From: Candidatus Methylomirabilota bacterium
GTDB lineage: Bacteria; Methylomirabilota; Methylomirabilia; Methylomirabilales; Methylomirabilaceae
DNA length: 64,000 bases
Assembly (NCBI GenBank): GCA_003104975.1
Contig: PQAM01000010.1
Coordinates: forward strand, 424,577 to 488,576
Direction: 5' to 3'
The notes below the pieces were generated by a model that searched no databases, was not told the DNA's origin, and saw nothing but the letters and a program-made list of their open reading frames with translations. The first letter of the stretch is position 1, and every line of letters starts with the position of its first letter. Of this stretch, positions 8,507-51,592 are shown one piece after another. Both the position numbers and the translations under genes were made by a program.

Positions 8507-10447
<1,941 letters not shown>

Positions 10448-29658: not shown

Positions 29659-29797
29659 GGGGTATTAATGCAATTAAGCAATAATGGGATAGTATATCAC
29701 CAGGGAACGTGGAATGATACCGCTGATGCATACAACGCATCGTCGATAGATTTCATTGACAACGAGAGGATATCGGTATATGGTGTTTATTGTGTGT

Positions 29798-29813
29798 TGG
29801 CATAACCCTTGCT
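29798..29813 (+). promoter_or_regulatory. Sigma-54 promoter of the copper efflux operon
   Basis: TGGCATAACCCTTGCT fits the -24/-12 consensus TGGCAC-N5-TTGCW, with GG and GC exactly ten bases apart. Predicted start near 29824, ahead of the small membrane gene (29874) and cusC-like gene (30501). A GATGC-N7-GCATC palindrome at 29725-29741 lies about 70 bases upstream and could bind an activator. A sigma-54 activator gene lies downstream of the operon (38407). Confidence 0.75.
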
Positions 29814-29873
29814 CTTTCAGGCGGTGAGGCTCTATATTATAGCGAAGTGAAGGGAAGCGAGCCCGTGAGAGTG

Positions 29874-30140
29874 ATGGGTCATCAAAAGACCGCCATGAAG
29901 TTTGTTCTGATCGCTTGCCTCGCCGTGGCATTGTGTATGATGCCGTGCGGGGTAGCCGGGCAACACCACGCATCAATGGGCGCCCCCTCTGTTCTATGCA
30001 TCGTTGATCTTCCCCAGGTCTTTCAACTCGTGATCGCGTGGAACCTGGTTCTCTTCGCCGCCCTAACGTTGATTATCGTTCCACAAGCTCCTGCTTTTTC
30101 TCTCCTGAAACCTCCTCGTCCGCGCTTCGCAATACTCTAA
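29874..30140 (+). CDS. Small secreted/membrane protein of the copper operon
   Basis: 88 residues from the ATG at 29874 (a second ATG at 29895 is possible). A first hydrophobic segment with signal-peptide character (MKFVLIACLAVALCMMPCGV) is followed by GQHHASMGAPSVLCIVDLP, then a second membrane segment and a basic tail. The His/Met/Cys content after the signal would suit copper or silver binding. First gene after the sigma-54 promoter, 360 bases before the cusC-like gene. No family recognised. Confidence 0.55.
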   Translation: MGHQKTAMKFVLIACLAVALCMMPCGVAGQHHASMGAPSVLCIVDLPQVFQLVIAWNLVLFAALTLIIVPQAPAFSLLKPPRPRFAIL

Positions 30141-30256
30141 CTGAAGGCCCGTACACTTTAGTTCTATCTATCAGGGCGACGCCTGACTTGGCGTGCTCTT
30201 GAGGGACCGCTGTAGATGCTTCCCGGCTGCAGCCGGATGCTCGAAGCGTGACTATG

Positions 30257-30347
30257 TGTAACGTCATTAGACGTAACAATAGCCGTCATTCCCGCGAAAG
30301 CGGGAATCCAGAAAGGCACTGGATTCCGGGTCAAGCCCGGAATGACG
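30257..30347. repeat. REP-like element, left inverted copy flanking cusCBA
   Basis: 30284-30347 is a palindromic element (CGTCATTCCCGCGAAAGC ... AAGCCCGGAATGACG). Its left part plus flank, 30257-30313 (from TGTAACGTCATTAG), reappears inverted at 36975-37019, apart from a 12-base insertion here. The 360-base gap 30141-30500 contains no gene. Confidence 0.8.
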
Positions 30348-30500
30348 AACTGTCTGAGACTTATGTCGTCATGTATAGAATCATCATGGCCTATCGGCCA
30401 CCCGCGCACCATGAAAATGCGGGCTATTTTCTAAGCAAGTCCGGATGCATTCGGATGTCGGGTGGCCGGTGGCATGGCGCGTGAAAATGGGGAGGTCGAA

Positions 30501-31781
30501 ATGACGATGACCTTGAAAATCGGTGTGCTCATCCTTGTTGCCGGTATTGCGGACGTTGGGGTGGGAGCAGCGGCGGCTACGGCGGAAGAGTTGCTTCGAC
30601 TTGATCCGCTCATCCAGGAGGCCCTGGCCGCGAATCCGGAGATCAGGACCGAGGGAAAAAAATGGGATGCGGCTAAGGAACGGCCTCCTCATGAAGGGTC
30701 GCTTGATGATCCGATGCTGAGCTTTGAGCTTGAAAACCTACCCACCAATTCGTTCGCCTTTACCCAGGAAGATATGACGATGAAGAAGCTCGGCATCTCT
30801 CAGACGTTCCCCTACTTCGGGAAGCTGGGTCTGCGAAGCGAGATCGCCCAACGGGAGGCCAATGCGATCGGCCAAGGGTATCGCGATAAGCGAAACGAGA
30901 TTGTGCGGCGGATCAAGGAGATTTTCTATGACCTGTACGCTATCGACCGCTCGCTGGAGATCGTGGGGAAAAATCGTGAGCTGCTGCGAGAATTCGTCAA
31001 AATTGCTGAGACCAAATACAGCGTCGGCAAGGGCATTCAACAGGACGTCCTGAAGGCCCAGGTGGAGCTGTCGAAATTGCTGGATGAGCAGATCCGGCTG
31101 GAACAGAGTCGCCAGGCTGCGGGCGCTCGGTTGAATGCGATCTTGAACCGCCCCCCGCAGACGCCCCTCGGTCGGACGGAGGAGGTGTCGAAGGCCGAGG
31201 CGTCGATCGACCTAAAGGAGCTCCAGGCCAGGGCCCTGGAGAACCGGCCTCTGCTCAAAGGACTTGCTGAGGAGATCGAGCGGAGCAAGGCGGCCAACGC
31301 GCTGGCCAGGAAGCGATACTTCCCGGATCTCACGATGAGCCTGGGCTACGCCTTTCGCGAAGACTCCGCTATAGCCAAGCGATCCGATTTCTTCTCAGCG
31401 GGATTTTCGATCAACATCCCGATCTACTTCAGGACCAAGCAGGACCGGCAGGTCGCAGAGACCTCAGCGTTAATCAACTCGGCCAAGGAGCAGTATCAGG
31501 CTGCCAGGAACGAGGTGTTCTCGCTGGTTAAAGAACTGGCGGCCGATATCGAAAAAGGGAGCAAGCTCATTGACCTGCTGGAGACCGGCCTGATCCCTCA
31601 GGCACGTCTCTCCCTGGATTCGGCGGTTGCCGGCTACCAGGTGGGCAAGGTCGATTTTCTTACGATGCTGGATAACCAGGTGACGCTGTTTAATTTTGAG
31701 AAGGAGTACTATCGGACGCTGGCAGAGTACCAGACAAGTCTGGCGCGGTTAGAGTGGGTCGTCGGCGCCCCCGTTCAGTAA
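30501..31781 (+). CDS. CusC/CzcC-like TolC-family outer membrane efflux protein
   Basis: 426 residues from the ATG at 30501 (GGGGAGG upstream). Signal peptide to about residue 28, then the TolC-type duplicated helical-barrel domain: LIQEALAANPEIR, DPMLSFELENLP, ISQTFPYFGKLGLR, VELSKLLDEQIRLEQSRQAA, and the second repeat QYQAARNEVFSLVKELAADI. Forms the outer membrane channel for the adaptor and RND pump encoded next. No lipid-attachment Cys is seen, unlike E. coli CusC. Confidence 0.9.
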   Translation: MTMTLKIGVLILVAGIADVGVGAAAATAEELLRLDPLIQEALAANPEIRTEGKKWDAAKERPPHEGSLDDPMLSFELENLPTNSFAFTQEDMTMKKLGISQTFPYFGKLGLRSEIAQREANAIGQGYRDKRNEIVRRIKEIFYDLYAIDRSLEIVGKNRELLREFVKIAETKYSVGKGIQQDVLKAQVELSKLLDEQIRLEQSRQAAGARLNAILNRPPQTPLGRTEEVSKAEASIDLKELQARALENRPLLKGLAEEIERSKAANALARKRYFPDLTMSLGYAFREDSAIAKRSDFFSAGFSINIPIYFRTKQDRQVAETSALINSAKEQYQAARNEVFSLVKELAADIEKGSKLIDLLETGLIPQARLSLDSAVAGYQVGKVDFLTMLDNQVTLFNFEKEYYRTLAEYQTSLARLEWVVGAPVQ

Positions 31782-31800
31782 AGTGGAGTATGTCGTAGGG

Positions 31801-32116
31801 GCGCGATTGATCGCGCCCAGTGCAGGATACGAGGAGACACAGTACGAGGCTCGATGTGGGCGCAATGAATTGCCGCCCCTACGCCGGCGGCTGTTGATGT
31901 CGTGCCCAGCCCAGGCGTGTCAGGTGCGGGAGTTGTGGGGGCGCGATTGATCGCGCCCAGTGCAGGATACGAGGAGACACAGTACGAGGCTCGATGTGGG
32001 CGCAATGAATTGCCGCCCCTACGCCGGCGGCTGTTGATGTCGTGCCCAGCCCAGGCGTGTCAGGTGCGGGAGTTGTGGGGGCCGATTTATCGCGCCCAGT
32101 GTAGGATACGAGGAGA
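31801..32116. repeat. Tandem 140-bp repeat (2 full units and a part)
   Basis: Units at 31801-31940 and 31941-32080 are essentially identical; a third begins at 32081 and stops after ~36 bases. Each unit holds the palindrome GGGCGCGAT-TG-ATCGCGCCC and a related GGGCGCAATGAATTGC part. They fill nearly the whole gap between the cusC-like gene and cusB. No reading frame is preserved across the units. Confidence 0.95.
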
Positions 32117-32131
32117 GAAATTGAGGGAGGA

Positions 32132-33418
32132 ATGATGCAACAGAGGACACAGTGGGTTATCGCTTCGACTGTCCTGATCGCCGCGGCCGGCGCCATCTTC
32201 GTCGTCTGGTACGATGGCGGGATGCGTCTCCAGGAGCGGCTTAGCGACAGGACGCCGCCCCCTCGGGAGCCGCTCGCCCAGTCCCAAGAAAAAGGCGAGC
32301 GCGCCGGACACGAGGGTATGTCGATGCTGGCCTCGCAGGAACCGCAGAAGGCTGCCGGCGAGATGGGAATGGCGCCGGGGGCCGTGATGGTCAGTCCGGA
32401 GCGCCAGCAGTTGATCGGGCTGAAGACGGGTGTAGTCGAGCACCGGTCGATTGAGCGGACGATCCGGACGGTCGGCGTCGTCGAGTTCGATGAGCGACGC
32501 CTGGCCGACGTCAATGTCAAGATCGAGGGGTGGATCGAGAATCTGCTGGTCAACTTCACCGGGGAACCTGTCAGGAAGGGCCAGCCGCTCCTCACCATTT
32601 ACAGTCCGGATCTGGTTTCGACCCAGGAGGAGTACTTGCAGGCGCTGCGGGCGAGGGAGACGCTGGCCAAGAGCCGCTTCACAGACATCGCGTCCGGAGG
32701 GGAGACATTGGTCAAGGCGGCGAGGCGGCGTCTGCAGTTCTGGGATATCAGCGACGAGGAGATTGCCGCTCTTGAACGAAGCGGGACGCCCCGCAAGAGC
32801 TTGACGATTTACTCGCCGATCGATGGGGTCGTCATCGAAAAGATGGCGTTACGCGGCAAAAAGGTGATGCCCGGCGAAACTCTCTATAAGGTTGCCGATC
32901 TGTCCACCGTCTGGGTCCACGGGGAGATCTACGAATACGAAGTTCCTCTGGTCAAGCGTGGCCAGGCGGCCAGCGTGACACTGGCCTCGTACCCCGCCGA
33001 GGTCTTTCATGGCAAGGTGAGCTACATCTACCCGGTTCTGACAGAGAAAACGCGGACCGTCAAGGTCCGGTTCGAGTTTCCCAATACGAAGGATTGGAAG
33101 CTGAAGCCTCAGATGTACGCCAACGTCGAGCTGAAGATTCCTTTGGGTAAGCGCCTCGTCGTTCCCGATGAGGCACTGCTCGACAGCGGGACGAGACAGC
33201 TCGTCTTTATCGATAAGGGGCAGGGGACCTTCGAGCCGCGGGATGTAAAGGTGGGCGCCAGGGTGGAGGGTTACGCAGAGATTCTGGCCGGCCTATCGGC
33301 CGGCGAGCGGGTGGTGACCTCAGCGAATTTCCTGATCGACTCCGAGAGCCAGCTTAAGACGGCAGTCGGCGGGATGGGTGGCATGCCCGGCATGGAGATG
33401 GGAAAGCGGGCGCAATGA
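32132..33418 (+). CDS. cusB: CusB-type periplasmic adaptor (membrane fusion protein)
   Basis: 428 residues; GAGGGAGG lies just before the first of two ATGs. One N-terminal membrane segment (WVIASTVLIAAAGAIFVVWY). Then a Met-rich region (MSMLASQEPQK..., GEMGMAPGAVM), the barrel-sandwich (VNVKIEGWIENLLVNFTGEP, VRKGQPLLTIYSPDL), a short hairpin, SPIDGVVIEKMALRGKKV, and a C-terminal tail GGMGGMPGMEM. Met-rich ends fit Cu(I)/Ag(I) handover to CusA. The stop codon lies inside a REP palindrome (33408-33427), so the C-terminal residues KRAQ are repeat-encoded. Confidence 0.92.
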   Translation: MMQQRTQWVIASTVLIAAAGAIFVVWYDGGMRLQERLSDRTPPPREPLAQSQEKGERAGHEGMSMLASQEPQKAAGEMGMAPGAVMVSPERQQLIGLKTGVVEHRSIERTIRTVGVVEFDERRLADVNVKIEGWIENLLVNFTGEPVRKGQPLLTIYSPDLVSTQEEYLQALRARETLAKSRFTDIASGGETLVKAARRRLQFWDISDEEIAALERSGTPRKSLTIYSPIDGVVIEKMALRGKKVMPGETLYKVADLSTVWVHGEIYEYEVPLVKRGQAASVTLASYPAEVFHGKVSYIYPVLTEKTRTVKVRFEFPNTKDWKLKPQMYANVELKIPLGKRLVVPDEALLDSGTRQLVFIDKGQGTFEPRDVKVGARVEGYAEILAGLSAGERVVTSANFLIDSESQLKTAVGGMGGMPGMEMGKRAQ

Positions 33419-33522
33419 ATTGCGCCCCTACACAGGCGGCTGTTGATGTCGTGCCCAGCCCAGGCGTGTCAGGTGCGGTAGTTGTAGGGGCGCGGTTTAC
33501 CGCGCCCAATGCGAGGCATACG
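33408..33522. repeat. REP-like repeat overlapping the cusB 3' end
   Basis: Starts with the perfect palindrome GGGCGCAAT-GA-ATTGCGCCC, which contains the cusB stop, and continues as a diverged copy of the 140-bp unit found at 31801, ending with another palindrome (GGGGCGCGGTTTACCGCGCCC region). Confidence 0.85.
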
Positions 33523-33533
33523 ATGCGTAAGGC

Positions 33534-33652
33534 GGGCGACAGGTGACTTCGCTTAATCTTGCCGCACGTCCTTGTGCGGCTCGAATCGGCGCCGACAGGC
33601 TGCGCTGTCCGTGCTTCGCCTGCCATCGACGACGCGTCGTCACCTGTCGCCC
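33534..33652. mobile_element. MITE-like element with 14-bp terminal inverted repeats
   Basis: Ends GGGCGACAGGTGAC and GTCACCTGTCGCCC are perfect inverted repeats enclosing 119 bases with further internal hairpins (CCGCAC/GTGCGG). No coding capacity. It is flanked on both sides by pieces of the 140-bp repeat, so it may have inserted into one. A target duplication is not obvious. Confidence 0.6.
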
Positions 33653-33721
33653 ACCCCAGGCGTTTCAGGCGCAATGCATTGTAGGGGCGCTGCTTGCTGC
33701 GCCCAGTACGGGGGTTATTCG

Positions 33722-36700
33722 ATGATCTCGCGGTTGATCGAGTGGAGCGCCACTAACCGATTCATCATCGGCCTCTTTACCCTTTTTGCCATCGCCTGGG
33801 GCCTCTGGGCCATTGGGAATACGCCCCTGGATGCCATCCCCGACCTGTCCGACGTCCAGGTCATCGTCCAAACGGAGTGGGCAGAGCGAAGCCCGACCCT
33901 CGTAGAAGACCAGATCACCTATCCGATTGTGGTGGCGCTCCTGTCAGCCCCCAAGGTGAAGGTGGTCCGCGGGTTTTCCTTCTTTGGCATCTCGTTTGTC
34001 TATGTCATCTTCCAGGATGGCACGGATCTGTACTGGGCCCGGACTCGGGTGCTCGAGTATATGCAGGGGGTGCAGGACCGATTGCCCGATGGTGCGACCC
34101 CGATTCTGGGACCGGATGCGACCGGCGTGGGCTGGGGGTTTGAATATGCCCTGGTAGACGAGACAGGCCGGCACGATTTGGCCCAACTTCGGACGCTGAA
34201 CGACTGGTACGTGCACCACTGGCTCCTGTCGGTCCCCGGCGTGGCCGAAGTAGCGCGGGTTGGCGGCTTCGTCAAGCAGTACCAGGTCACGATCGATCCC
34301 GCCACCCTGCTCGGGTTCAAGCTCCATCTGGAGCGGGTGATCGAGGCGATCCGGAAGGGGAACAACGATACCGGCGGCCGGGTGGTGGAGTTTACCGGAC
34401 GAGAGTATATGGTCCGGGGTCTCGGCTATATCAAGTCGATCAAAGACGTCGAGGCGATTGTTGTCGGGACCGACGAACGGGGCATCCCGATCCTGGTCCG
34501 GGACATCGGGCGGGTCGGTCTTGGGCCCGACATCCGCCGCGGCGTCGCCGATCTGAACGGCCAGGGTGACGTGGCCGGCGGGATCGTCGTGATCCGGTAC
34601 GGCGAGAACGCGCTGGACGTGATTCAGCGGATCAAGGACAAGATTCGGCAGATCACGCCCTCGCTGCCGGAGGGCGTCAGGATCGTCACTACCTACGACC
34701 GATCCGACTTGATTCACCGCTCCATCGCCACCCTTAAGGAAAAGCTGTTGGAAGAGAGTCTGATTGTCAGCGTCGTCAGCATTCTCTTCCTCTTTCACTT
34801 CCGCAGCGCCCTGGTGGCGATTCTCACCCTGCCGATCGCCATCCTCATGTCGTTCGTCGCCATGAACTACATCGGACTCGGTTCGAATATCATGTCGTTA
34901 GGCGGGATCGCCATCGCCATCGGAGCTATGATCGATGCGGCCATCGTGATGATCGAGAATGCCCACAAGCGCCTGGAGCATGCCGCTCCAGGAGATGACC
35001 GAAACCGGATCATCATTGAGGCGGCCAAGGAGGTGGGTAAGCCGCTGTTCTATTCGCTCCTGATCATTACCGTCTCCTTCATCCCGGTGTTCACTCTGCA
35101 GGCCCAGGAGGGGCGGCTCTTCAGGCCGTTGGCCTTCACCAAGACCTTCGCCATGTTCTTCTCCTCCCTCCTCTCGGTGACACTCGTACCGCTCCTGATG
35201 ATCCTGCTGATCCGCGGCAAGATCCATCCGGAACACAAGAATCCGATCAGCCGGTTCCTGATCTGGGTCTATAACCCGATCGTCCATGCTGTTCTCAAAT
35301 GGCGGAAGACCACGATCGCCGTTGCGGTGCTCTCGCTGCTCCTCACCATCCCTGTCTTCATGAGGCTGGGCAGCGAGTTCATGCCGCCGCTCTACGAGGG
35401 GACGCTCCTGTACATGCCGGTTACCCTCCCTGGTGCGTCGATCACTCAGGTTTCCCAACTCCTCCAGATCCAGGATCGGATCATCAAGCACTTCCCGGAG
35501 GTCGAGTCAGTGTTCGCCAAGGGGGGTCGCGCGACCAGCGCCACGGACCCGGCGCCCTTAGAAATGATCGAGACCGTCATCAACCTGAAGCCGGAGGAGG
35601 AGTGGCGGAAGGGGCTGACCGTGGAGAGGCTGATCGACGAGTTGGACAACGCCCTTCAGATCCCCGGCGTGACCAACGCCTGGACGATGCCGATCAAGGC
35701 GAGGACCGACATGCTCAGCACGGGGATCCGGACCCCCGTCGGGATCAAGGTACTTGGTACAAAGCTGGAGATGATCCAGCGAATAGGACAGGAGATCGAG
35801 ACGGCGCTCAAGCCTGTCCGGGGGACGCGAAGCGTCTTTGCCGAGCGTACGGCGGGCGGTTACTATCTCGACTTCAAGATCAAGCGGGACGAGATCGCCC
35901 GATACGGCCTCACCGTGACGGATGTAGAAGACGTCATCGAGACCGCCATCGGCGGCAGCACCGTCACGACCACAATCGAGGGGCGTGAGCGGTTCCCGGT
36001 GAATGTCCGGTATTTCAGGGGGCTCCGCGACAGCCTGGATGATCTGAGGCGTGTCCTGGTGTCGACCCCGATGGGTCCTCAAATCCCGATCACGCAACTT
36101 GTCGATCTGAAGCTCTCGAGCGGCACCACCCTGATCCGGAGCGAGGACGCCGAACTGGTCGGCTACGTCTATGTCGATGTCGTCGGGCGGGATATCGGCG
36201 GCTATGTTGCCGAGGCCCAGCGAGTCGTGGCGGAGAAGGTAGAACTTCCTTCAGGATACCACCTCATCTGGAGCGGCCAGTTCGAGTATATGGAGCGGGC
36301 GAAGGAGCGACTCAAATACGTCATCCCGTTGACGTTGCTCATCATTTTTGTCCTGCTCTATTTCAATTTCGGTTCGCTGGCCAAGTGTCTGATCGTGCTG
36401 TTGTCGGTCCCGTTTGCGCTGGTAGGCGGGATTTGGCTGCTGTATCTGCTGGGCTATAATTTAAGCGTGGCGGTCTGGGTGGGGATCATCGCGCTGGGCG
36501 GGGTGGCGGCCGAGACCGGCGTCGTGATGATCGTCTATCTGGACGAGGTGTATGAGCGGCGGGCGCGAGAAGGGAAGATGACCGGCGCCCGGGATCTGTA
36601 CGAGGCGATCATCGAGGGGGCGGTCATGCGGGTGCGCCCGAAGATGATGACGGTGATGGCCATCATGGCCGGCCTGCTGCCGATCATGTGGAGTCATGGG

Positions 36701-36868
36701 GCAGGGGCGGATGTCATGAAACGGATCGCCGCCCCGATGATCGGCGGCATGGTCACCTCGACCATCCTGACCCTGGTCATCATCCCTGTGATCTACGAGA
36801 TGTGGCGCAGCCGCCAGCTTCCGCAACCCGGCGCGCCACCGACTGTTCACGGCGAAGGGGAACGTTAG
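33722..36868 (+). CDS. cusA: CusA-type Cu(I)/Ag(I) RND efflux pump
   Basis: 1,048 residues from the ATG at 33722, normal length. Heavy-metal RND: N-terminal helix IEWSATNRFIIGLFTLFAI, NTPLDAIPDLSDVQVIV, TM4 acidic motif region (GAMIDAAIVMIENAHKRLEH), duplicated architecture, and a C-terminal GVAAETGVVMIVYLDE block. The monovalent-metal signature is visible: ARTDMLSTGIRTPVGIKV and GSEFMPPLYEGTLLYMP, with Met residues at the positions used for Cu/Ag by E. coli CusA. Exports metal from periplasm and cytoplasm through the CusC-like channel, driven by protons. Repeats separate it from cusB by 303 bases, but no terminator is evident. Confidence 0.95.
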   Translation: MISRLIEWSATNRFIIGLFTLFAIAWGLWAIGNTPLDAIPDLSDVQVIVQTEWAERSPTLVEDQITYPIVVALLSAPKVKVVRGFSFFGISFVYVIFQDGTDLYWARTRVLEYMQGVQDRLPDGATPILGPDATGVGWGFEYALVDETGRHDLAQLRTLNDWYVHHWLLSVPGVAEVARVGGFVKQYQVTIDPATLLGFKLHLERVIEAIRKGNNDTGGRVVEFTGREYMVRGLGYIKSIKDVEAIVVGTDERGIPILVRDIGRVGLGPDIRRGVADLNGQGDVAGGIVVIRYGENALDVIQRIKDKIRQITPSLPEGVRIVTTYDRSDLIHRSIATLKEKLLEESLIVSVVSILFLFHFRSALVAILTLPIAILMSFVAMNYIGLGSNIMSLGGIAIAIGAMIDAAIVMIENAHKRLEHAAPGDDRNRIIIEAAKEVGKPLFYSLLIITVSFIPVFTLQAQEGRLFRPLAFTKTFAMFFSSLLSVTLVPLLMILLIRGKIHPEHKNPISRFLIWVYNPIVHAVLKWRKTTIAVAVLSLLLTIPVFMRLGSEFMPPLYEGTLLYMPVTLPGASITQVSQLLQIQDRIIKHFPEVESVFAKGGRATSATDPAPLEMIETVINLKPEEEWRKGLTVERLIDELDNALQIPGVTNAWTMPIKARTDMLSTGIRTPVGIKVLGTKLEMIQRIGQEIETALKPVRGTRSVFAERTAGGYYLDFKIKRDEIARYGLTVTDVEDVIETAIGGSTVTTTIEGRERFPVNVRYFRGLRDSLDDLRRVLVSTPMGPQIPITQLVDLKLSSGTTLIRSEDAELVGYVYVDVVGRDIGGYVAEAQRVVAEKVELPSGYHLIWSGQFEYMERAKERLKYVIPLTLLIIFVLLYFNFGSLAKCLIVLLSVPFALVGGIWLLYLLGYNLSVAVWVGIIALGGVAAETGVVMIVYLDEVYERRAREGKMTGARDLYEAIIEGAVMRVRPKMMTVMAIMAGLLPIMWSHGAGADVMKRIAAPMIGGMVTSTILTLVIIPVIYEMWRSRQLPQPGAPPTVHGEGER

Positions 36869-36902
36869 TAACCTGTATCCAAAATTCGCTGCATATTTTC
36901 CG

Positions 36903-37019
36903 ACGTCATTTCGCCCCCGATCAGGTCGGGGGCCGCATCGCGGGCGCGAGCCGGAATCCAGGAAATAAGAGGAGTTCTGGATTCCCGCTTTCGCGGGAAT
37001 GACGGCTAATGACGTTACA
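36903..37019. repeat. REP-like element, right inverted copy flanking cusCBA
   Basis: Starts CGTCATTTCGCCCCCG and contains CCCGCTTTCGCGGGAATGAC. Bases 36975-37019 are the reverse complement of 30257-30313 (minus 12 bases), so the cusCBA genes lie between inverted copies. Confidence 0.85.
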
Positions 37020-37081
37020 TTTAGAAATCTGCTGCTGTCCAGTGGGGAGGACCAGGCGTAGGATAACGTGTAGCAGACAGG

Positions 37082-38410
37082 ATGTCGATGGCTCTCATTG
37101 ACCGGATCACGAGATCCCGCCTTGGACCGGATGAGCTGGCCTACGGAACGCTCAGGTCGCTCAGCTTGATCGGGGGCCTGATTGCGCTATTTCTCGTCCC
37201 GGTAAGGCCCGAACATGGCCGGCATCTTGCGCCCCTCTTTGTCGGTTTCCTCATCTACAAAGCGCTCCTCTTTGCATCTGTTCGACTCTGGCCCGAAAGA
37301 GTCCGCACGATCTTCATCTGGACCACCTACATCGATCTGACCTTCGTGTTCGTGTTTATCTGGTTCACGGGCGGCCTCGACAGCCATTTCTATCTCCTGT
37401 ACTATCTTTTGATTGCTCTGGACGCCTATTATTTTGGCTCCCGCGTGGCCTTGTCCGCTTCCATCACAGCGGGGGCCCTCTACGTTGGGGCCGATCTGTT
37501 AAGTCCGCCGTCCTACCCTCATCCGGGCCACCTCCCTGCTCGGGTGAGCCTCATGATCTTCCTTGGCACGGCCCTCGGCCTACTGTCGGATCGAGAGCGG
37601 CTGGCTCGGCAGAAGGCAGAGACGCTCAACGTCCAGCTCGCAGAGCGACAGGCCAGCCTGGAGCGGGCATATCAGCATCTGCGCGATACCCAGCGACGGC
37701 TGCTCCACTCGGAGCGTCTTGCCATGGTGGGGAAACTGGCCGCCAAGGTTGCGCATGAGGTCCGAAACCCTCTCAGCTCCATCAGCCTGAACCTTGAGTT
37801 GCTGGAGGATGAGATCGCGGCTGGTTCCGCGCCCCCGGCGGATCAAGCGAAGGGTTTGGTGAGTTCGATCAAGGTTGAAATCGAGCGCCTGACGGAGGTG
37901 ACCGAAAGCTATCTGCGGCTGGCGAGGCTTCCGGAACCTAAGCTTGCTACCGAATCGCTTGGAGAGCTCCTGGAGAGTCTTTGCGACCTTCTCCGGGGCG
38001 AGATGGGGAAGCGGCAGGTCAAGATCGAAGTACGGATCGATCCCGGGATTCCCCTCGTGCTGGTTGACAGAAACCAGCTCAGACAGGCATTCATCAATGT
38101 GCTCGGCAACGCTTTCGAAGCGATGCCGTCCGGAGGGTTGGTGACTGTATCTGCAAAAAAGACCGGCGGCCGCGTCGAGATCGCCTTTGCCGACGAGGGT
38201 CCCGGCGTCCCTGCCGACCACCTGGAGAAGATCTTTGAACCCTTCTTCACGACGAAGGCGGGTGGGACAGGGCTTGGTCTGGCGATCGCCAAGGAGATCG
38301 TCGAGGCCCACGGCGGGCAGATCCACTGCTCAAGCCGCCCCGGGAGCGGGACCGTGGTCGCCATCAGCCTGCCCCTTGGCGAAGGCGAAGAGGACCGAGG
38401 CAGGGCATGA
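37082..38410 (+). CDS. NtrB-like membrane sensor histidine kinase
   Basis: 442 residues. About six hydrophobic segments in residues 25-170, with very short periplasmic loops and no large sensor domain, then a coiled linker (LNVQLAERQASLERAYQHL). HisKA phospho-acceptor His225 is in KVAHEVRNPLSSISLNLELL; HATPase boxes follow: QAFINVLGNAFEAMP (N), FADEGPGVP (G1), FEPFFTTKAGGTGLGLAIAK (F/G2). Phosphorylates the NtrC-type regulator that overlaps it by 4 bases. The membrane-embedded sensor could detect metal or membrane stress; position after cusA suggests copper. Confidence 0.93.
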   Translation: MSMALIDRITRSRLGPDELAYGTLRSLSLIGGLIALFLVPVRPEHGRHLAPLFVGFLIYKALLFASVRLWPERVRTIFIWTTYIDLTFVFVFIWFTGGLDSHFYLLYYLLIALDAYYFGSRVALSASITAGALYVGADLLSPPSYPHPGHLPARVSLMIFLGTALGLLSDRERLARQKAETLNVQLAERQASLERAYQHLRDTQRRLLHSERLAMVGKLAAKVAHEVRNPLSSISLNLELLEDEIAAGSAPPADQAKGLVSSIKVEIERLTEVTESYLRLARLPEPKLATESLGELLESLCDLLRGEMGKRQVKIEVRIDPGIPLVLVDRNQLRQAFINVLGNAFEAMPSGGLVTVSAKKTGGRVEIAFADEGPGVPADHLEKIFEPFFTTKAGGTGLGLAIAKEIVEAHGGQIHCSSRPGSGTVVAISLPLGEGEEDRGRA

Positions 38411-39774
38411 CCGAGCAAAATGTGATCCTCGTCGTTGATGATGACCAGGCCCTTCGGGAGGCGTTGGGGAAAGCATTGGCCAAGGAAGGGCATGCGGTCA
38501 TCCTTGCTGCGGACGGGCAAGAGGGTTTGGACCAACTGCGAAACAAGCCGGTGAATGTGACCCTCTTGGACCTGAAAATGCCGGGACTGGCCGGACTTGA
38601 ACTCCTGAAAGCCGCAAGGCTGCTTGTCCCCGACGTTGAGGTCATCATTATCACCGGCCACGGGACGATCGACGACGCGGTGACGGCAATGAAACAGGGG
38701 GCCTATGACGTCGTCACGAAGCCCTTCAGCCGCTTCAATCTGTTGAAGACTGTGGAGAAGGCCCTTGAAAAGCAGAGACTGAGCACGCAGGCTAAGGTCT
38801 TGCAGCGCAAACTGGATGAAGTAGAAGAGAAAGACCGGATTGTTGGGATCAGTGCTGCCATGGGCCGGGTCCTGGGGCTGGTGGAACAGGTGGCGGGCAG
38901 CGAGGCCACCGTCACGATCCAAGGGGAGAGCGGTACAGGGAAGGAGCTCATTGCGAATCTGGTCCATCGCCTCAGTCCAAGGCGTGAGAGGCCGTACATC
39001 AAGGTCAACTGCGCCGCCCTGCCAGAAACCCTCCTGGAATCCGAGCTCTTCGGCTACGAAAAGGGTGCATTCACCGGCGCGCTGACCAGGAAAGCTGGGC
39101 GATTTGAGCTGGCGAATAGAGGCACGATGTTTTTGGACGAGATCGGGGACCTGAGTTTGACAACGCAAGCGAAACTCCTCAGGGTCCTCCAGGAAGGCGA
39201 GTTCGAACGGCTGGGAGGCACGCAGACCCTCAAGGTCGATGTCCGGCTAGTGACGGCGACGAACCAGGATCTTCGGCAGAGCGTAAGGGAGAAGAAGTTC
39301 CGAGAGGACCTCCTCTACCGGCTGGATGTTGTCACTATTGTTCTGCCACCCCTACGCGAACGACCAGAGGATATCCCTCTCCTCGCCGAGCATTTCTTGC
39401 GTCGGTATGCCCAAAAAAGCCAAAAGGCACTTTCAGGCTTCTCGGATGCGGCGCTAGCGAGTCTCTTGGAGTACAACTGGCCGGGAAACGTTCGGGAACT
39501 GGAACACGCCATTGAGCATGCCGTGATCTTCGCCCGGGAGACCAATATCAGCGTCGACGACCTTCCTCCCGCCATTTCGACTGAGCGGAGGAAGGCCCTG
39601 GAGCGGGCCTTGACGATCCCGCTGGGCACACCGCTGGACGAGGTGGAACTGCGGTTGATCGAGGAGACCCTGCGGCTGACCAAGGGCGATAAGGAACTGG
39701 CCGCCAAACTGCTTGGAATTGCCAGCCGCACCATCTACCGCAAGCTGAAACGAGGGGAGACTGAACTGGCTTGA
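38407..39774 (+). CDS. NtrC-like sigma-54 activator, response regulator
   Basis: 455 residues. Receiver domain with acceptor Asp55 (LLDLKMPG), Thr (IIITGHG) and Lys (VVTKPFS); central AAA+ domain with Walker A GESGTGKE, sigma-54 contact loop GAFTGA, and Walker B FLDEIGDL; a Fis-type HTH at the C-terminus (KELAAKLLGIASRTIYRKLK). Activates sigma-54 promoters after phosphorylation. The best targets are the promoters at 29798 and 40132, the latter with paired palindromes at the right upstream distance. Confidence 0.95.
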   Translation: MTEQNVILVVDDDQALREALGKALAKEGHAVILAADGQEGLDQLRNKPVNVTLLDLKMPGLAGLELLKAARLLVPDVEVIIITGHGTIDDAVTAMKQGAYDVVTKPFSRFNLLKTVEKALEKQRLSTQAKVLQRKLDEVEEKDRIVGISAAMGRVLGLVEQVAGSEATVTIQGESGTGKELIANLVHRLSPRRERPYIKVNCAALPETLLESELFGYEKGAFTGALTRKAGRFELANRGTMFLDEIGDLSLTTQAKLLRVLQEGEFERLGGTQTLKVDVRLVTATNQDLRQSVREKKFREDLLYRLDVVTIVLPPLRERPEDIPLLAEHFLRRYAQKSQKALSGFSDAALASLLEYNWPGNVRELEHAIEHAVIFARETNISVDDLPPAISTERRKALERALTIPLGTPLDEVELRLIEETLRLTKGDKELAAKLLGIASRTIYRKLKRGETELA

Positions 39775-39985
39775 TCGAATGTCCCGCCGGCATCATTACT
39801 TGAGCCGCTTTTGACAACTTATCAGTGCCTTTCCTGGTCTCGAGATTCTCATTGCTCTGGTTCCGATTCAGATAGACTGCTGCGGACTCACCCCGATCAA
39901 GCTGTCGGCCTCGCCAAAGAGACTCCTCTCCCGCTGAGATCCCTTTTCATCACCCCGCCAGCACTCCTAAGTGATCCGCTTCACT

Positions 39986-40039
39986 TGACAAAATGTCGCT
40001 CCTTCAAAGCCCATTCTCGCCACGAATGACAGAATGTCA
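39986..40039. promoter_or_regulatory. Paired palindromic activator sites (candidate UAS)
   Basis: TGACAAAATGTCG (39986-39998) and TGACAGAATGTCA (40027-40039) are two copies of a TGACA-N3-TGTCA palindrome, 41 bases apart, about four helical turns, and 95-150 bases upstream of the sigma-54 -24 element. This is the usual placement for dimers of an NtrC-type activator. The remaining gap 39775-40288 has no gene I can support. Confidence 0.65.
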
Positions 40040-40131
40040 AGGGATCATGGCGGACACTGAGGCCAAGCAATTGAGACGCAAAATCACCGCTGTACTTTCA
40101 ACAAGTTATGATGCCATTTTTGACGCGCCGT

Positions 40132-40148
40132 TTGGCATCCAACTTGCC
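40132..40148 (+). promoter_or_regulatory. Sigma-54 promoter of the cupredoxin operon
   Basis: TTGGCATCCAACTTGCC has the -24 GG and -12 GC exactly ten bases apart and matches TGGCAC-N5-TTGC. Predicted start near 40159, 130 bases before the cupredoxin-like gene. Confidence 0.75.
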
Positions 40149-40288
40149 CTCTTCAGTCGTAGGAGATGGTGAAGGTTCGGAGGTTTGAGACCTCTTTGAG
40201 TGTAGACGACAACAAAGAGGCCAAAGAGGAAGCGTGAGATCCAGTGGTTGAAGGGTTGAATCGCCGAAGGAAAGGAAGTGCAGAGATC

Positions 40289-40648
40289 ATGCAAAAATTA
40301 GGAGCGATCTTGGGAGGGCTGAGCGCCCTAATCCTCGTAACCGGGGTTGAGCTGTCGCTCGCGGCGACTGTCAAGATCACCGACAGTGATCTTCAGCCTG
40401 CGACTGTGACGGTCAACCGGGGTGAAGAGGTCATATGGGTGGATGCCACCACTGATCAGAACGCTCATGTGAGCCTGGATTTCAGCAGTTGGCAGACAGG
40501 GGTCCGGCTCAGCACAAGCAAAGAAGGCGACGTGCGGGCGAAATTCGAAAAGTCGGGCACCTATGGGTACAGTGCACACGTCACAATGCTTCCCGAGGCC
40601 CGCGGCGGAGCTCCGTTTGACCTTCGCGGCAAGGTCGTCGTGAAGTAA
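40289..40648 (+). CDS. Secreted cupredoxin-like protein lacking the copper Cys
   Basis: 119 residues from the ATG at 40289. Signal peptide ending SLAA, then a plastocyanin-type fold: VKITDSDLQPATVTVNRGEEVIWVDA, NAHVSLDF (first His position), and GTYGYSAHVTMLPEARGGAP. In type 1 copper proteins the last loop reads YxYxCxxHxxM; here Cys is absent (YGYSAHVTM), so a blue-copper electron-transfer site cannot form, though His and Met could still bind Cu(I)/Ag(I). A periplasmic metal-binding role fits the sigma-54 promoter and neighbours. Confidence 0.8.
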   Translation: MQKLGAILGGLSALILVTGVELSLAATVKITDSDLQPATVTVNRGEEVIWVDATTDQNAHVSLDFSSWQTGVRLSTSKEGDVRAKFEKSGTYGYSAHVTMLPEARGGAPFDLRGKVVVK

Positions 40649-40806
40649 GGCTCGATCGAGTTGCGGGCTCACATCAACACAGGAAAGGAAGTGACAGAAG
40701 GACAATAGGGGAATTCCTTTAGCGGTAGGGTCGTTGGAGTGGATCAGGTGTGTTTTTCGTAGAACTACATCGGTTCGTTCGATAGTGCGGAAGGAGGTGA
40801 GTTTCA

Positions 40807-41121
40807 ATGCGGAGAAAAGGGGTAGGAGCGTTTGCCGTCATCCTGGCAGCCGTCTCCTTTGCCGGGGTCGCTTTTGCGTTCGACGTGACGATCAGCGGGC
40901 CGACGATCTCGGTAGGCCCATCCGCAATGACTCCGACGATAAAGCCTGCGGGTGAGTCGACGATGCCGATCTTCAACGTCGAAGAACGGACTGCAGGGGC
41001 TGTGAGTGACTTGATGCGAGGCGCCACGACCCCACTGGGACATAGTCTCATACTCGGTGGTTTCAAAGAAGGTGTGCATGAGTTGGCGCCTTACCCTCAG
41101 GTTGGGACAACGTCAGAGTAA
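40807..41121 (+). CDS. Small secreted protein, degenerate paralogue of the next gene
   Basis: 104 residues with a signal peptide (ending GVAFAF). The ribosome site GGAAGGAGGTGA is near-perfect, nine bases from the ATG, the same arrangement as in the next gene. ISVGPSAMTPTIKPAGESTM... and GFKEGVHELAPYP align with ISVDPTAMILVMKPQGEKML... and GPQEGEHEWEPT of that protein, so the two arose by tandem duplication. This copy has lost the regular beta pattern in its second half. Periplasmic; role unknown, probably metal-related. Confidence 0.65.
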   Translation: MRRKGVGAFAVILAAVSFAGVAFAFDVTISGPTISVGPSAMTPTIKPAGESTMPIFNVEERTAGAVSDLMRGATTPLGHSLILGGFKEGVHELAPYPQVGTTSE

Positions 41122-41268
41122 CGTACTGAACCGACCTGAAAGGCTCCAGAGGGGAGGTGATGCAAGCACAATGTGGGAATTCCTCCGGAACTAGGGTTTC
41201 CGGATTCTATGAGGTATGGGTATCTTGACGATGGATCGATTCGATGGCGTGGAAGGAGGTGAATGTCG

Positions 41269-41592
41269 ATGCGGAACAAAGTGGCAGGAGCCTTTGTGGC
41301 CATCCTGGCGACGCTCGCCTTTGGCGGAGTGGCTTTTGCGGCCCACGGGGCAGCGACGATCAAGGGTGAGGTGATCTCGGTAGACCCCACTGCGATGATC
41401 CTGGTGATGAAGCCTCAGGGTGAGAAGATGCTGCTGACTTTCAGGGTCGAGGGGCAGGCTGCAAGGGCATTGGCTAACCTGAAGCGAGGCGACAAAGTGG
41501 AAGTGTCGACACACAGCTTCACAGTTGGTGGTCCCCAAGAAGGTGAGCATGAGTGGGAGCCTACCGCTGTGGTCGTCACAAAGTCAAAGTAG
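41269..41592 (+). CDS. Secreted OB-fold protein, CusF-like
   Basis: 107 residues from the ATG at 41269, nine bases after AGGAGG (an ATG at 41263 is too close). Signal peptide ending GVAFA. ATIKGEVISVDPTAMILVMK, LTFRVEGQAAR and LKRGDKVEV are the strand pattern of small OB-fold proteins such as CusF, the periplasmic Cu/Ag chaperone. The His/Trp/Met ligand set of CusF is not obvious, so metal binding is not assured. Third gene after the sigma-54 promoter; followed by a strong hairpin. Confidence 0.65.
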   Translation: MRNKVAGAFVAILATLAFGGVAFAAHGAATIKGEVISVDPTAMILVMKPQGEKMLLTFRVEGQAARALANLKRGDKVEVSTHSFTVGGPQEGEHEWEPTAVVVTKSK

Positions 41593-41618
41593 CGCACTGA
41601 GCCGACCTGAAAGGCTCC

Positions 41619-41653
41619 GGAAAGGCGGCTCTCGTTGCGAGAGCCGCCTTTCC
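41619..41653 (+). terminator. Perfect 16-bp hairpin after the OB-fold gene
   Basis: Arms GGAAAGGCGGCTCTCG and CGAGAGCCGCCTTTCC are perfectly complementary with a TTG loop. There is no T-run, so it may act as an RNA stabiliser or a non-canonical terminator closing the cupredoxin operon. Confidence 0.6.
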
Positions 41654-41697
41654 TCCTGATAATGGTCGAATATGAATAAGGGATGCGAGGGAGTGCG

Positions 41698-41883
41698 ATG
41701 TGGGGATTCTTTCAGAATTATGGTCTCTGGATTGTGCTGGGTGTAATTTTCCTGGTGATGCATCGGTTCGGTCTGGGTTGCTGCGGCGGTCATGATCACA
41801 GACCGGACCGCGGCAGTGGCGAGGAAGAGGACGAGTCGGAGTTAAAGAGCGAGGGTGGTGGGGGACTGGACCGGCGCCGGTGA
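41698..41883 (+). CDS. Single-TM DUF2933-like peptide
   Basis: 61 residues from the ATG at 41698 (GAGGGAG upstream). One membrane helix (YGLWIVLGVIFLVMHRFGLG) is followed at once by CCGGHDH, a potential metal-binding cluster, and an acidic/basic tail. DUF2933 peptides have the same plan and are frequent beside copper resistance genes. Probably an inner-membrane accessory of the copper response. Confidence 0.6.
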   Translation: MWGFFQNYGLWIVLGVIFLVMHRFGLGCCGGHDHRPDRGSGEEEDESELKSEGGGGLDRRR

Positions 41884-42098
41884 GCAGGGTGAGTTGTCAC
41901 GGTATCGACGCGACTCGCCATTTCTTGTCTTGCTCTATGCTAACTTCGGTTTGTCGGCCAAAGTTCCATTGCTCTGCTGTCGGTTGCGTTCTCGCGGGGT
42001 GGGCGGAAATTGGCTATCGCATCTCCCAGCCTGTACTCTATAATCCGAACGTGGTCGTTCGGGTCGGGCATACCGTGTTGGCTTGGGGAGTTCGAGCT

Positions 42099-42587
42099 AT
42101 GGCAAACGAAGAACAAATCAAAACAAGTATACCGGAGCCGGATGCGCCTGAAACGATCGAGCGGCTGAAAGCGATCGTCCGGGAGCATCGCGTCTGCTGG
42201 GAGGTGTGGCCTGAGCAGCTTGCAGGGGCCGGCTATCGGCCGTTGCAGGTCGGCTTCGATCTGGTGCTGAACGGCGCCCATGCCCACGAGGATCGGCCTT
42301 CCGCCGGATGCGAGAAGTGCAAGGCGATTTTCGAGCATCTTCGCCAGATCGCCGAGTGGATCATGCCCAAGGTCGAGCGTCCCTCCCGATACGACATTCA
42401 GATCTTCGACCACGCGATTCATTTTGCTCCCGAACGCGGCAATCGACCGGATGTCGCGCTGACCATCAAGATTCTCCACCGCGTCGAGATCGGCAGGCCG
42501 GTGGACGAATGCGAGGTGCGCTGCCTCGACGAGATGAAAGCGAAGCTCGCGCAGATCGGCGCTCAGCATCGACAGTGGGTGGACTGA
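42099..42587 (+). CDS. Uncharacterised cytoplasmic protein
   Basis: 162 residues from the ATG at 42099 (GGGGAG upstream); the open frame before it lacks coding character. No signal peptide. Features: WEVWPEQLAGAGYRPLQVGF (a conserved-looking block), HAHEDRPSAGCEKCKAIFEHL with a Cys-x2-Cys and nearby His that could bind a metal, and YDIQIFDHAIHFAPERGNRP. I recognise no family. The gap from 41884 to 42098 holds only its leader. Confidence 0.6.
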   Translation: MANEEQIKTSIPEPDAPETIERLKAIVREHRVCWEVWPEQLAGAGYRPLQVGFDLVLNGAHAHEDRPSAGCEKCKAIFEHLRQIAEWIMPKVERPSRYDIQIFDHAIHFAPERGNRPDVALTIKILHRVEIGRPVDECEVRCLDEMKAKLAQIGAQHRQWVD

Positions 42588-49632: not shown

Positions 49633-49829
49633 GAGGATTGAGGCGCCAGGGATCACCGACAGGTCATGGCGTATCAGGTAAGGTGGTTCGTGAGGATCGT
49701 GGTCGGCAGTGAATCGTTACGCGGCGGCGCGCGGCCAGATTCGACTTGTCCGATGACCCGTACCGGCGTACTATTTCCGTAAGCATCGGTTCCGACGCGT
49801 CAGAGGGATACGGGAGGGAGCGGAAGTCT

Positions 49830-51200
49830 ATGAAACACACAGCCGTATCAATCGCAACCATTGCTCTTACACTGCTGGCCGTGACGGCCTGCGCCCCGCA
49901 CATGCAATACCGCACTGTCCACCCGGACGTCTGTGTCAGCCCGAAGCCGAAACCCACGCCGGAGTGCGAAGCCTACGCGCTGCAACAACTGCCCGGCGAC
50001 AACGGCTCCAGCTACCTGCTTGGGTTCATTGAATTCGACGATCAGGGCCAGCTCTGGGACCGCAGACAGATGCGCGATGTCCTGTCGAAACTCGAGACCG
50101 AGGCTGGGACCCGCGATCTGCTGATGGTGGTATTCGTGCACGGTTGGAAGCATAGCGCCGCGCCCGGTGATCCTAACATCAATACCTTCCGCGGCGTGCT
50201 GGCCGACCTGAGCGATACCGAAGCCTATCTGGCCAAGACCAGCGGAGCCCAAGCCCGCCAGGTGGTCGGCATCTACTTCGGCTGGCGCGGCGGTTCGCTG
50301 CCCATAAAATATCTGGAAAACGTCACCTTCTGGGACCGCAAAAACACCGCCCAGAAGGTCGGGTACGGCGGGGTGGCCGAGGTCCTGAGCCGGTTGGAGG
50401 ATATCAAGCTCACCAAGGACAGCATGGTCTGCCGCGATCGCCCGGTACCCGCAAACGGCGAGCCGTTGTGCCGCAGCAGCACCCAGCTCGTGGCCGTCGG
50501 CCACAGCTTCGGCGGCGCGGTGATGCACACCGCGCTTGCCCAGATCCTGGAAAACCGTTTTGTTCAGACCGCCGGACCGGCCGGCCAAAAAAGCGATGTC
50601 GAAGGATTCGGCAACCTGGTGGTGCTGATCAACCCGGCGTTTGAGGCCAACCTGTTTACACCGATGAGCGACATGGCGGCGGAGCGCACCTACTTCTCCT
50701 CACAACTGCCGGTCGTGTTGGTATTGACCTCAGAGGCCGATGGCGCCACCCGTTACGCCTTTCCGATCGGGCGCTGGTTTTCGACCATTTTTGAGAAGGC
50801 GCACGATCGGCAGCGACGGAATGCGGTGACCGGTGAAACGGAGACGATCAGCGCACGTGACGCCAATGTCCGCGCCGTCGGCCATTTCAAACCGTACCGT
50901 ACCCACCGCCTCTACCCGAAGACGGAGCGCATACGCGAGGAACTGAAGACCCCCAGCGCCGCCGACAGCATCCGGATGTTCAAGCGCTCCAGAGCTGATT
51001 GGGCAAGCGACGAACCCGGCAGCAAGATCACGTTCGGTGATGTGGTGCTGGAACGCACCACCATCTCGGCGGGTCGCAACCCCTATCTCGTCACCTATGT
51101 CGACGGGCGACTGATTCGTGATCATAACGACATCGATGATCCTCGGATCATCGAATTTGTCAAGCAACTGATCCTGATTTCTATCTACGGCAAGAAGTAG
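49830..51200 (+). CDS. Lipoprotein with alpha/beta-hydrolase domain
   Basis: 456 residues from the ATG at 49830 (GGGAGGGAG upstream). Signal peptide with lipobox VTAC (about residue 22), so outer- or inner-membrane anchored. The hydrolase core shows LLMVVFVHGWKHSA (oxyanion region) and the nucleophile elbow VGHSFGGAVM. Acidic and His partners cannot be placed with certainty. Looks like esterase/lipase-type lipoproteins of Gram-negative bacteria. Monocistronic by context; substrate unknown. Confidence 0.78.
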   Translation: MKHTAVSIATIALTLLAVTACAPHMQYRTVHPDVCVSPKPKPTPECEAYALQQLPGDNGSSYLLGFIEFDDQGQLWDRRQMRDVLSKLETEAGTRDLLMVVFVHGWKHSAAPGDPNINTFRGVLADLSDTEAYLAKTSGAQARQVVGIYFGWRGGSLPIKYLENVTFWDRKNTAQKVGYGGVAEVLSRLEDIKLTKDSMVCRDRPVPANGEPLCRSSTQLVAVGHSFGGAVMHTALAQILENRFVQTAGPAGQKSDVEGFGNLVVLINPAFEANLFTPMSDMAAERTYFSSQLPVVLVLTSEADGATRYAFPIGRWFSTIFEKAHDRQRRNAVTGETETISARDANVRAVGHFKPYRTHRLYPKTERIREELKTPSAADSIRMFKRSRADWASDEPGSKITFGDVVLERTTISAGRNPYLVTYVDGRLIRDHNDIDDPRIIEFVKQLILISIYGKK

Positions 51201-51300
51201 CTTGAGCCGTATTGTGGTGCGCAATTGAATCAAAAGTGCAGTAAGATAAGGGTGTGCCGACCTGTGGTCGGCAACAGGAGCTGAACGCATTGCTTAATGT

Positions 51301-51483: not shown

Positions 51484-51592
51484 TTGCGATGATAACCCTG
51501 AGTGTCGGTAGAGCATCACGATGTACGGATTGAGCGGATTGATCGGCTGATGCTGATATGGATCTGGTGAGAGGCCCTTTTCAGGAGGAGGA

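Follow-up and report, generated by a model that had tools for sequence, protein, structure and literature searches.

Does a two-component regulatory pair that stands directly behind a set of copper-efflux genes also control them? The question is raised by a stretch of 64,000 nucleotides (the window) from Candidatus Methylomirabilota bacterium (GenBank assembly GCA_003104975.1, contig PQAM01000010.1, positions 424,577 to 488,576 of the forward strand), in which a small membrane-protein gene and cusCBA are followed, on the same strand, by genes for a histidine kinase and an NtrC-type activator and by a group of genes for small proteins, with a -24/-12 (sigma-54-type) element ahead of each of the two outer gene sets. 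A reading made without knowledge of relatives (the sequence-only reading) had taken the whole as one sigma-54-controlled copper efflux system. We consider it rather more probable that the locus holds two regulatory units side by side, one in which the pair runs its own downstream operon through sigma-54, and a separate one formed by cusCBA.

The tandem enhancer and the sigma-54-type elements

The regulatory features on which the question turns are the following.

29798 to 29813, forward strand: site 1, a -24/-12 (sigma-54-type) element, TGGCATAACCCTTGCT, with GG-N10-GC spacing, preceding the small gene and cusCBA.
37082 to 38410, forward strand: membrane sensor histidine kinase, with about five hydrophobic segments, no sizeable periplasmic domain, and the motifs E-H (residues 44-45) and S-H-F (101-103).
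38407 to 39774, forward strand: NtrC-type sigma-54 activator, with a REC domain, an AAA+ domain carrying GAFTGA at residue 220, and a Fis-type helix-turn-helix.
39985 to 40040, forward strand: tandem palindromic enhancer, TGACAAAATGTCG and TGACAGAATGTCA, with palindromes at 39986 and 40027, 41 nucleotides apart.
40133 to 40148, forward strand: site 2, a -24/-12 element, TGGCATCCAACTTGCC, with GG-N10-GC spacing and 9 of 11 matches, 148 nucleotides from the start of the tandem enhancer.

Both -24/-12 sites named by the sequence-only reading are present with GG-N10-GC spacing, site 2 starting one base further on than given there (40133, not 40132), and sigma-54 is encoded in the genome. Judged by sequence alone, both sites are no better than chance: scored over 11 positions, elements with at most two mismatches occur 21 times in the window against 27.3 expected, and a scan of the 3.0-megabase genome for the strict form TGGCAYN5TTGCW gave 14 matches against 4 for the reversed pattern, site 2, which ends in C, falling outside the 14. 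Since the window-wide scan is at chance level, conservation in relatives was used as evidence.

The genome holds a single exact copy of TGACANNNTGTCA, at 40027, and a single instance of the relaxed tandem form, at site 2, 10 kilobases (kb) from site 1. Across 95 genomes of the class (own included), the tandem-palindrome pattern gave seven matches in six genomes and no control matches, and all seven enhancers, that of the window included, are followed by a GG-N10-GC element with 9 or 10 of 11 matches, 148-165 nucleotides from the start of the enhancer (the chance of such an element in one 18-nucleotide window is about 0.0015, from the element density in the seven sequences). Enhancer and regulator also occur together in relatives. 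In one genus (g5, seven genomes) both are found in G022, G025, G028 and G030, in G025 on different contigs, and neither in G018 and G034; in G032 (76% complete) the enhancer was found close to the beginning of a contig, with no regulator match. The second half-site pair lies about 42 nucleotides from the first in G022, G028 and G030, downstream of the regulator, compared with 41 in the window. Simpler forms were seen in G019 (a single palindrome, with a strict site 98 nucleotides downstream), in G093 (a palindrome and a strict site 117 nucleotides apart, before genes for a small membrane protein and a heavy-metal-associated domain, on a contig that ends within the regulator and on which no kinase was seen) and in G091 (two palindrome/site pairs, one with GGGCAC instead of TGGCAC).

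The kinase and the regulator

The description of the two genes as an NtrB/NtrC-like pair with an intact GAFTGA loop holds, given the REC, sigma-54 AAA+ and Fis-type domains of the regulator, which scores under the NCBIfam NtrC cut-off (TIGR01818, 432.1 of 558.6 bits). For the kinase, Pfam at E 0.001 returns HisKA and HATPase domains only. Ahead of the kinase domain there are about five hydrophobic segments joined by short loops; the first 200 residues hold no cysteine and three methionines, and two conserved histidines stand at the ends of hydrophobic segments. If the N-terminus is inside, both histidines would lie at the outer face of the membrane, where they may bind metal or quinone. E-H and S-H-F are present in 8 of 15 aligned kinases and in 7/8 of a second set (L167 being common to both). 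Where the end of the regulator is present, kinases with these motifs go with the helix-turn-helix motif RTIYR and those without them with others, such as RTVSRKLE; RTIYR is likewise common to the regulators ahead of tandem enhancers whose ends are present, and Rokubacteria-type regulators differ.

The nearest regulator relatives belong to other families of the order, with 64-69% identity (G015, G019, G022, G025, G028 and G030), and the best kinase relatives in named genomes, among the matches listed, are from Rokubacteria, none of the 80 matches listed in named genomes exceeding 45% identity. Related pairs without the enhancer stand, in six Rokubacteria loci (L211, L212, L214, L216, L218 and L167), before propeller and cupredoxin/COX2-polyferredoxin genes, as recognised by a Pfam scan for L211 and by eye for the others. 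Polyferredoxin genes lie upstream in G015 and G022.

Distribution of the pair and of cus in the genus

None of the 14 congeners gave a match to the kinase (at 1e-80), to the regulator (at 1e-150) or to the tandem enhancer, and 10 of these genomes keep the start region of the cus operon. At these thresholds, the pair was rejected as a genus-wide cus regulator. Directly after cusA, G010 and G014 have the orthologue of window gene 42096-42584, and G003 and G004 that of 49803-51224, so that positions 36869-42095 are extra in the window genome relative to these four; in G006 the window gene that is matched first starts at 47782, in G001 and G005 at 51587, while G008 gave only a 44% match and G009 none. 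For 36869-42095, insertion appears more probable than loss on several occasions.

The cus operon and its start region

The cus unit comprises the following features.

29756 to 29784, forward strand: sigma-70-type promoter, TTGACA-N17-TATGGT, upstream of site 1, with 10 of 12 matches.
29865 to 30140, forward strand: small membrane/periplasmic protein gene, the first of the cus operon, with a GTG start assigned by conservation of aligned starts.
30462 to 31781, forward strand: cusC-like outer membrane factor (Pfam OEP).
32132 to 33418, forward strand: cusB-like periplasmic adaptor (Pfam HlyD_D23; the CusB/CzcB NCBIfam matches are under cut-off).
33722 to 36868, forward strand: cusA, heavy-metal RND pump (TIGR00914), whose best solved relative is CusA.

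That a small membrane gene and cusCBA follow site 1 is borne out by the Pfam matches of CusC and CusB and by CusA, which scores 1193.3 bits against TIGR00914, the model of CusA/CzcA heavy-metal RND pumps (cut-off 701.45). Against solved structures, CusA (3t51) gave 1185.6 bits compared with 545.4 for ZneA, and methionine occupies, in the alignment with 3t51, all three positions equivalent to M573, M623 and M672, which we take to be the metal-site periplasmic methionines of E. coli CusA. The small gene has no family match in Pfam or NCBIfam. Twelve of the 14 congeners have cusA at 82-93% identity (G002, G012 and G013 being on cut contigs), and the order small gene, cusC, cusB, cusA is the same in all nine congeners with readable flanks.

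The promoter region was obtained for 11 of the 15 genus genomes, G002, G007, G011 and G012 being left out for want of a close cusA or because of a cut contig. An unanchored alignment of 10 upstream regions contains a conserved YGGCATAMCYCTTGC block 91-97 nucleotides ahead of the ATG equivalent to 29895; the eleventh region, that of G013, was located by pattern. The sequence-only reading had proposed a search for the same sites before homologous operons and had set non-conservation beforehand as its refutation, and the outcome is divided: GG-N10-GC at site 1 is intact in 8/11 (G000, G004, G005, G008, G009, G010, G013 and G014, the regions of G008 and G014 being nearly identical) and damaged in three (G001, where it is one base shorter, G003 and G006). 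A TTGACA-17-TA(T/G)NNT promoter ending 12-24 nucleotides before site 1 was found in five of the 11, window included (G000, G003, G006, G010, with TAGCAT as its -10 hexamer, and G013), and two of these five, G003 and G006, are genomes with a damaged site 1. With intact or damaged copies of site 1 and sigma-70 elements nearby, the cus promoter of the genus seems to be either dual (sigma-54/sigma-70) or shifting between the two types.

No regulator palindrome was found upstream of site 1 in the window; the best match there has three mismatches, which makes the window regulator a poor candidate for site 1. A search for another enhancer dyad ahead of site 1, in 10 genus sequences (L154, near-identical to L150, left out), gave at best a dyad in 5/10, matched in 3 of 20 shuffles, and the candidate was rejected.

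Some further observations concern the cus genes themselves. Much of the cusC-cusB and cusB-cusA gaps (31792-32103 and 33408-33704) is occupied by a direct repeat of 140 base pairs (99%) and by scattered GGGGCGCGAT...ATCGCGCCC palindromes. Inverted-repeat arms of 54 nucleotides (83%) flank cusCBA at 30277-30330 and 36958-37011, the latter close to where the additional stretch of the window genome begins. A second cusCBA-like set (L159, at G000:C10:333000-350000), with a CusA 65% identical, has no strict -24/-12 match in the stretch examined. Of 118 further loci, L009-L060 were listed and L039-L118 checked for cus genes, and in the Geobacteraceae, an unrelated lineage, an NtrC-type pair lies about 4 kb upstream of cusCBA (L050, 3805-14785), with a long gene in between that, by eye, may encode a P-type ATPase. 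No convincing sigma-54 site was found around that cusCBA: the two elements with 9 of 11 matches, at 761 and at 9461, do not stand in front of cusC on its strand, and the rest have 8.

Genes behind site 2 and the targets of related enhancers

Four genes follow site 2.

40289 to 40648, forward strand: small beta-rich protein, exported, with no more than weak sequence similarity to cupredoxins.
40807 to 41121, forward strand: small exported protein 1, 46% identical to protein 2, with no family in Pfam or NCBIfam.
41263 to 41592, forward strand: small exported protein 2, paired with protein 1, with a weak ExtJ match below cut-off.
41683 to 41883, forward strand: small membrane protein, FFQNYGLWIVLGVIFLVMHRFGLGCCGGHDH, homologue of the enhancer-bearing G030 target gene (76% over 29 residues).

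The cupredoxin and OB-fold identities given earlier to genes in this group were not confirmed. The product of 40289-40648 has no Pfam match and reaches plastocyanin at E 0.056 only. Its structure model has a pLDDT (predicted local distance difference test score) of 64.5, with best matches to PliG in Foldseek (E 0.012) and to a collagen-binding domain in VIA-align (Z 7.2), and no plastocyanin-type cupredoxin is among the best 50 matches of either fold list; the copper-binding Methylomicrobium CorA (4bz4) comes 25th, with a Z score (5.4) that unrelated proteins share. The OB-fold candidate has no Pfam match and a model pLDDT of 33.3. In five genus loci (L146, L147, L148, L149 and L203) a relative of 40289-40648 (27-31% identity) lies behind the small gene of the cus operon, and none lies there in the window.

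Five of the seven tandem enhancers precede a gene for a methionine-rich exported protein, one a gene for a YGLW...GMGCCGGH membrane protein, and one the window operon. The second of these cases is the second G030 enhancer, whose target has the motif YGLW...HWFGMGCCGGH; small proteins of this type we take to be those named DUF2933, for which Pfam returned no match. Methionine-rich, Cys/His-rich and heavy-metal-associated-domain proteins are typical of metal handling.

Weighing the explanations

Control through sigma-54 by the pair is probable for the operon downstream of it. In the reading of two adjoining units, the membrane-embedded kinase would phosphorylate the activator, which would bind the two palindromes at 39986-40039 as its enhancer and turn on sigma-54 RNA polymerase at 40133-40148, leading to transcription of 40289-41883 and production of the small exported proteins and of the Cys/His-rich small membrane protein. 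In the window genome this unit would be an accessory module, with cusA on one side and the gene at 42096 on the other. The small gene together with cusCBA would form a genus-wide operon with its own start region, which in the window species has a sigma-54-type element with a sigma-70-type promoter just ahead of it; if sigma-54 is used at site 1, another activator would act there. Of the sigma-54 copper control put forward at the outset, one part finds support: beside metal-handling genes stand an NtrC-type regulator, enhancer palindromes of its own and a promoter of the sigma-54 type, and relatives preserve this combination. The control of cusCBA by the pair is unsupported. For a coupling of metal export to nitrogen status no support was found.

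Several observations weigh against this reading. Five of the seven tandem enhancers share both genus and target gene and are not independent, which leaves three independent cases, namely the methionine-rich gene, the second enhancer of G030 and the window itself. In the window, the genes that directly follow site 2 (the cupredoxin-like one and the paired small proteins) differ from the enhancer targets of genus g5. In 7 of 9 further loci examined, the region behind the regulator yielded no palindrome/site pair, and six of these seven have the same helix-turn-helix motif and kinase histidines, features which are therefore not always accompanied by the enhancer; likewise, no site was found within 3 kb downstream of the regulator in seven readable Rokubacteria loci (the scan covered 13 loci and the window, with L162 left out; the contigs of L162, L161 and L172 end inside the regulator and are uninformative). 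The absence of the pair is weaker in five of the 14 congeners, which are only 80-83% complete. G001, in whose start region site 1 is damaged and a consensus sigma-70 promoter is missing, fits none of the promoter models considered, and copper (or silver) as the signal is suggested by the neighbouring genes.

Among the alternatives, direct control of cusCBA by the adjacent pair, acting at both sites, is the least credible to us, and we regard it as very unlikely. Pair and pump genes do adjoin on one strand, site 1 is intact in the window as in 8 of 11 genomes in all, and enhancers are in general able to act at a distance, but all 14 congeners are without a match to the pair or its enhancer, 10 of them with the cus start region in place, the sole tandem enhancer found in the genome belongs to site 2, and ahead of site 1 stand a palindrome match with three mismatches and TTGACA-17-TATGGT; the extra stretch behind cusA speaks against it as well. 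It is somewhat less improbable, if still rather doubtful, that cusCBA is transcribed from a sigma-70 promoter and that the TGGCAT...CTTGC block, instead of being a sigma-54 promoter, is an operator or untranslated element. The sigma-70 matches, which 0 to 8 of 500 shuffles score as high as, include two of the three genomes with damaged site 1, and another conserved block downstream could act as a -10 element. Nevertheless, the other six of the 11 regions have no sigma-70 match clearly above shuffles, GG-N10-GC is kept in 8/11 where sequence further upstream hardly aligns (as read from the alignment), and the GGCATAMCYCTTGC block is present in 7 of the 15 genus genomes, in one copy each and always at the cus promoter, with one control match in the 15.

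A third alternative concerns the signal: what the kinase senses would be redox state or quinone instead of metal, and an electron-transfer chain that uses copper proteins would be served by the operon. A sensor of hydrophobic segments that is devoid of cysteine, has few methionines and carries histidines at the segment ends is compatible with this, as are the propeller and cupredoxin/COX2-polyferredoxin genes behind the Rokubacteria pairs and the polyferredoxins of G015 and G022. Pointing the other way are the targets in g5 and G093, namely methionine-rich proteins, a membrane protein rich in Cys and His, and a heavy-metal-associated domain, and we hold this alternative to be unlikely. As to the wider meaning of the two-unit arrangement, we offer only as a tentative possibility, itself on the improbable side, that the NC10/Rokubacteria class possesses a sigma-54-based metal-response module, of which it is one instance; the kinase, lacking a periplasmic sensor domain, would read copper, silver or redox state through its conserved membrane-edge histidine pair (E-H, S-H-F) and drive interchangeable metal-handling sets from a fixed tandem enhancer, and here the module would have been inserted behind cusCBA, as a second layer of copper response beside a pump under mixed sigma-70/sigma-54 control.

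Comparison with known systems

E. coli CusCBA is regulated by CusRS, whose regulator is of the OmpR type. The window shares with the E. coli system the CusC, CusB and CusA set, the CusA family and the metal-site methionines, and differs from it in that the adjacent regulator is a REC-AAA+-Fis protein (the search for OmpR-type regulators was confined to this neighbourhood, not the rest of the genome or the congeners). The PilSR system also has a kinase with several transmembrane segments and no periplasmic domain, and TGTC-type binding sites; no pilus gene was seen among the few genes scanned near the window pair. NC10-type methane oxidisers, to which the window organism probably belongs, depend on a copper enzyme, and our literature searches, which seldom combined the genus name with copper, listed no report of sigma-54 control of copper genes in them.

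The NtrC-type nature of the adjacent regulator agrees with the proposal of a control logic different from that of Cus, but to call this logic wholly different is too strong, because sigma-54 control of copper genes has been published for Myxococcus xanthus, where, in the portion of the source available, the copper-responsive pair CorSR, with a sigma-54 regulator, controls the curA copper operon, and copA is also under a sigma-70-family factor (PMC3707914). In both cases a pair with an NtrC-type sigma-54 regulator lies among copper-tolerance genes, with mixed sigma-54/sigma-70-family control, and the first gene of the curA operon has a cupredoxin domain, whereas that of the window is cupredoxin-like by weak similarity only; the same portion gives CopA and a multicopper oxidase for the CorSR operon and names no cusCBA in its gene table, nor was an enhancer sequence seen there (PMC3707914). 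CorS is described there as having one transmembrane segment, a periplasmic sensor and a HAMP domain (PMC3707914), and neither of the latter two was recognised in the window kinase. ZraSR, as far as the accessible text of the source goes, is likewise a metal-stress pair with a sigma-54 regulator (PMC12316311); the window proteins fall below the NCBIfam cut-offs for it, with 396.5 of 760 bits for ZraR and 192.3 of 479 for ZraS.

The locus advises caution, in that adjoining genes need not share a regulator, and pump and neighbouring regulator seem here to differ in history. Since the locus supplies a defined enhancer, a promoter and, in the kinase, two histidines as candidate sensors, the signal is directly testable. 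Beside the systems already described, what seems new here is the type of sensor, the defined enhancer and the class-specific module.

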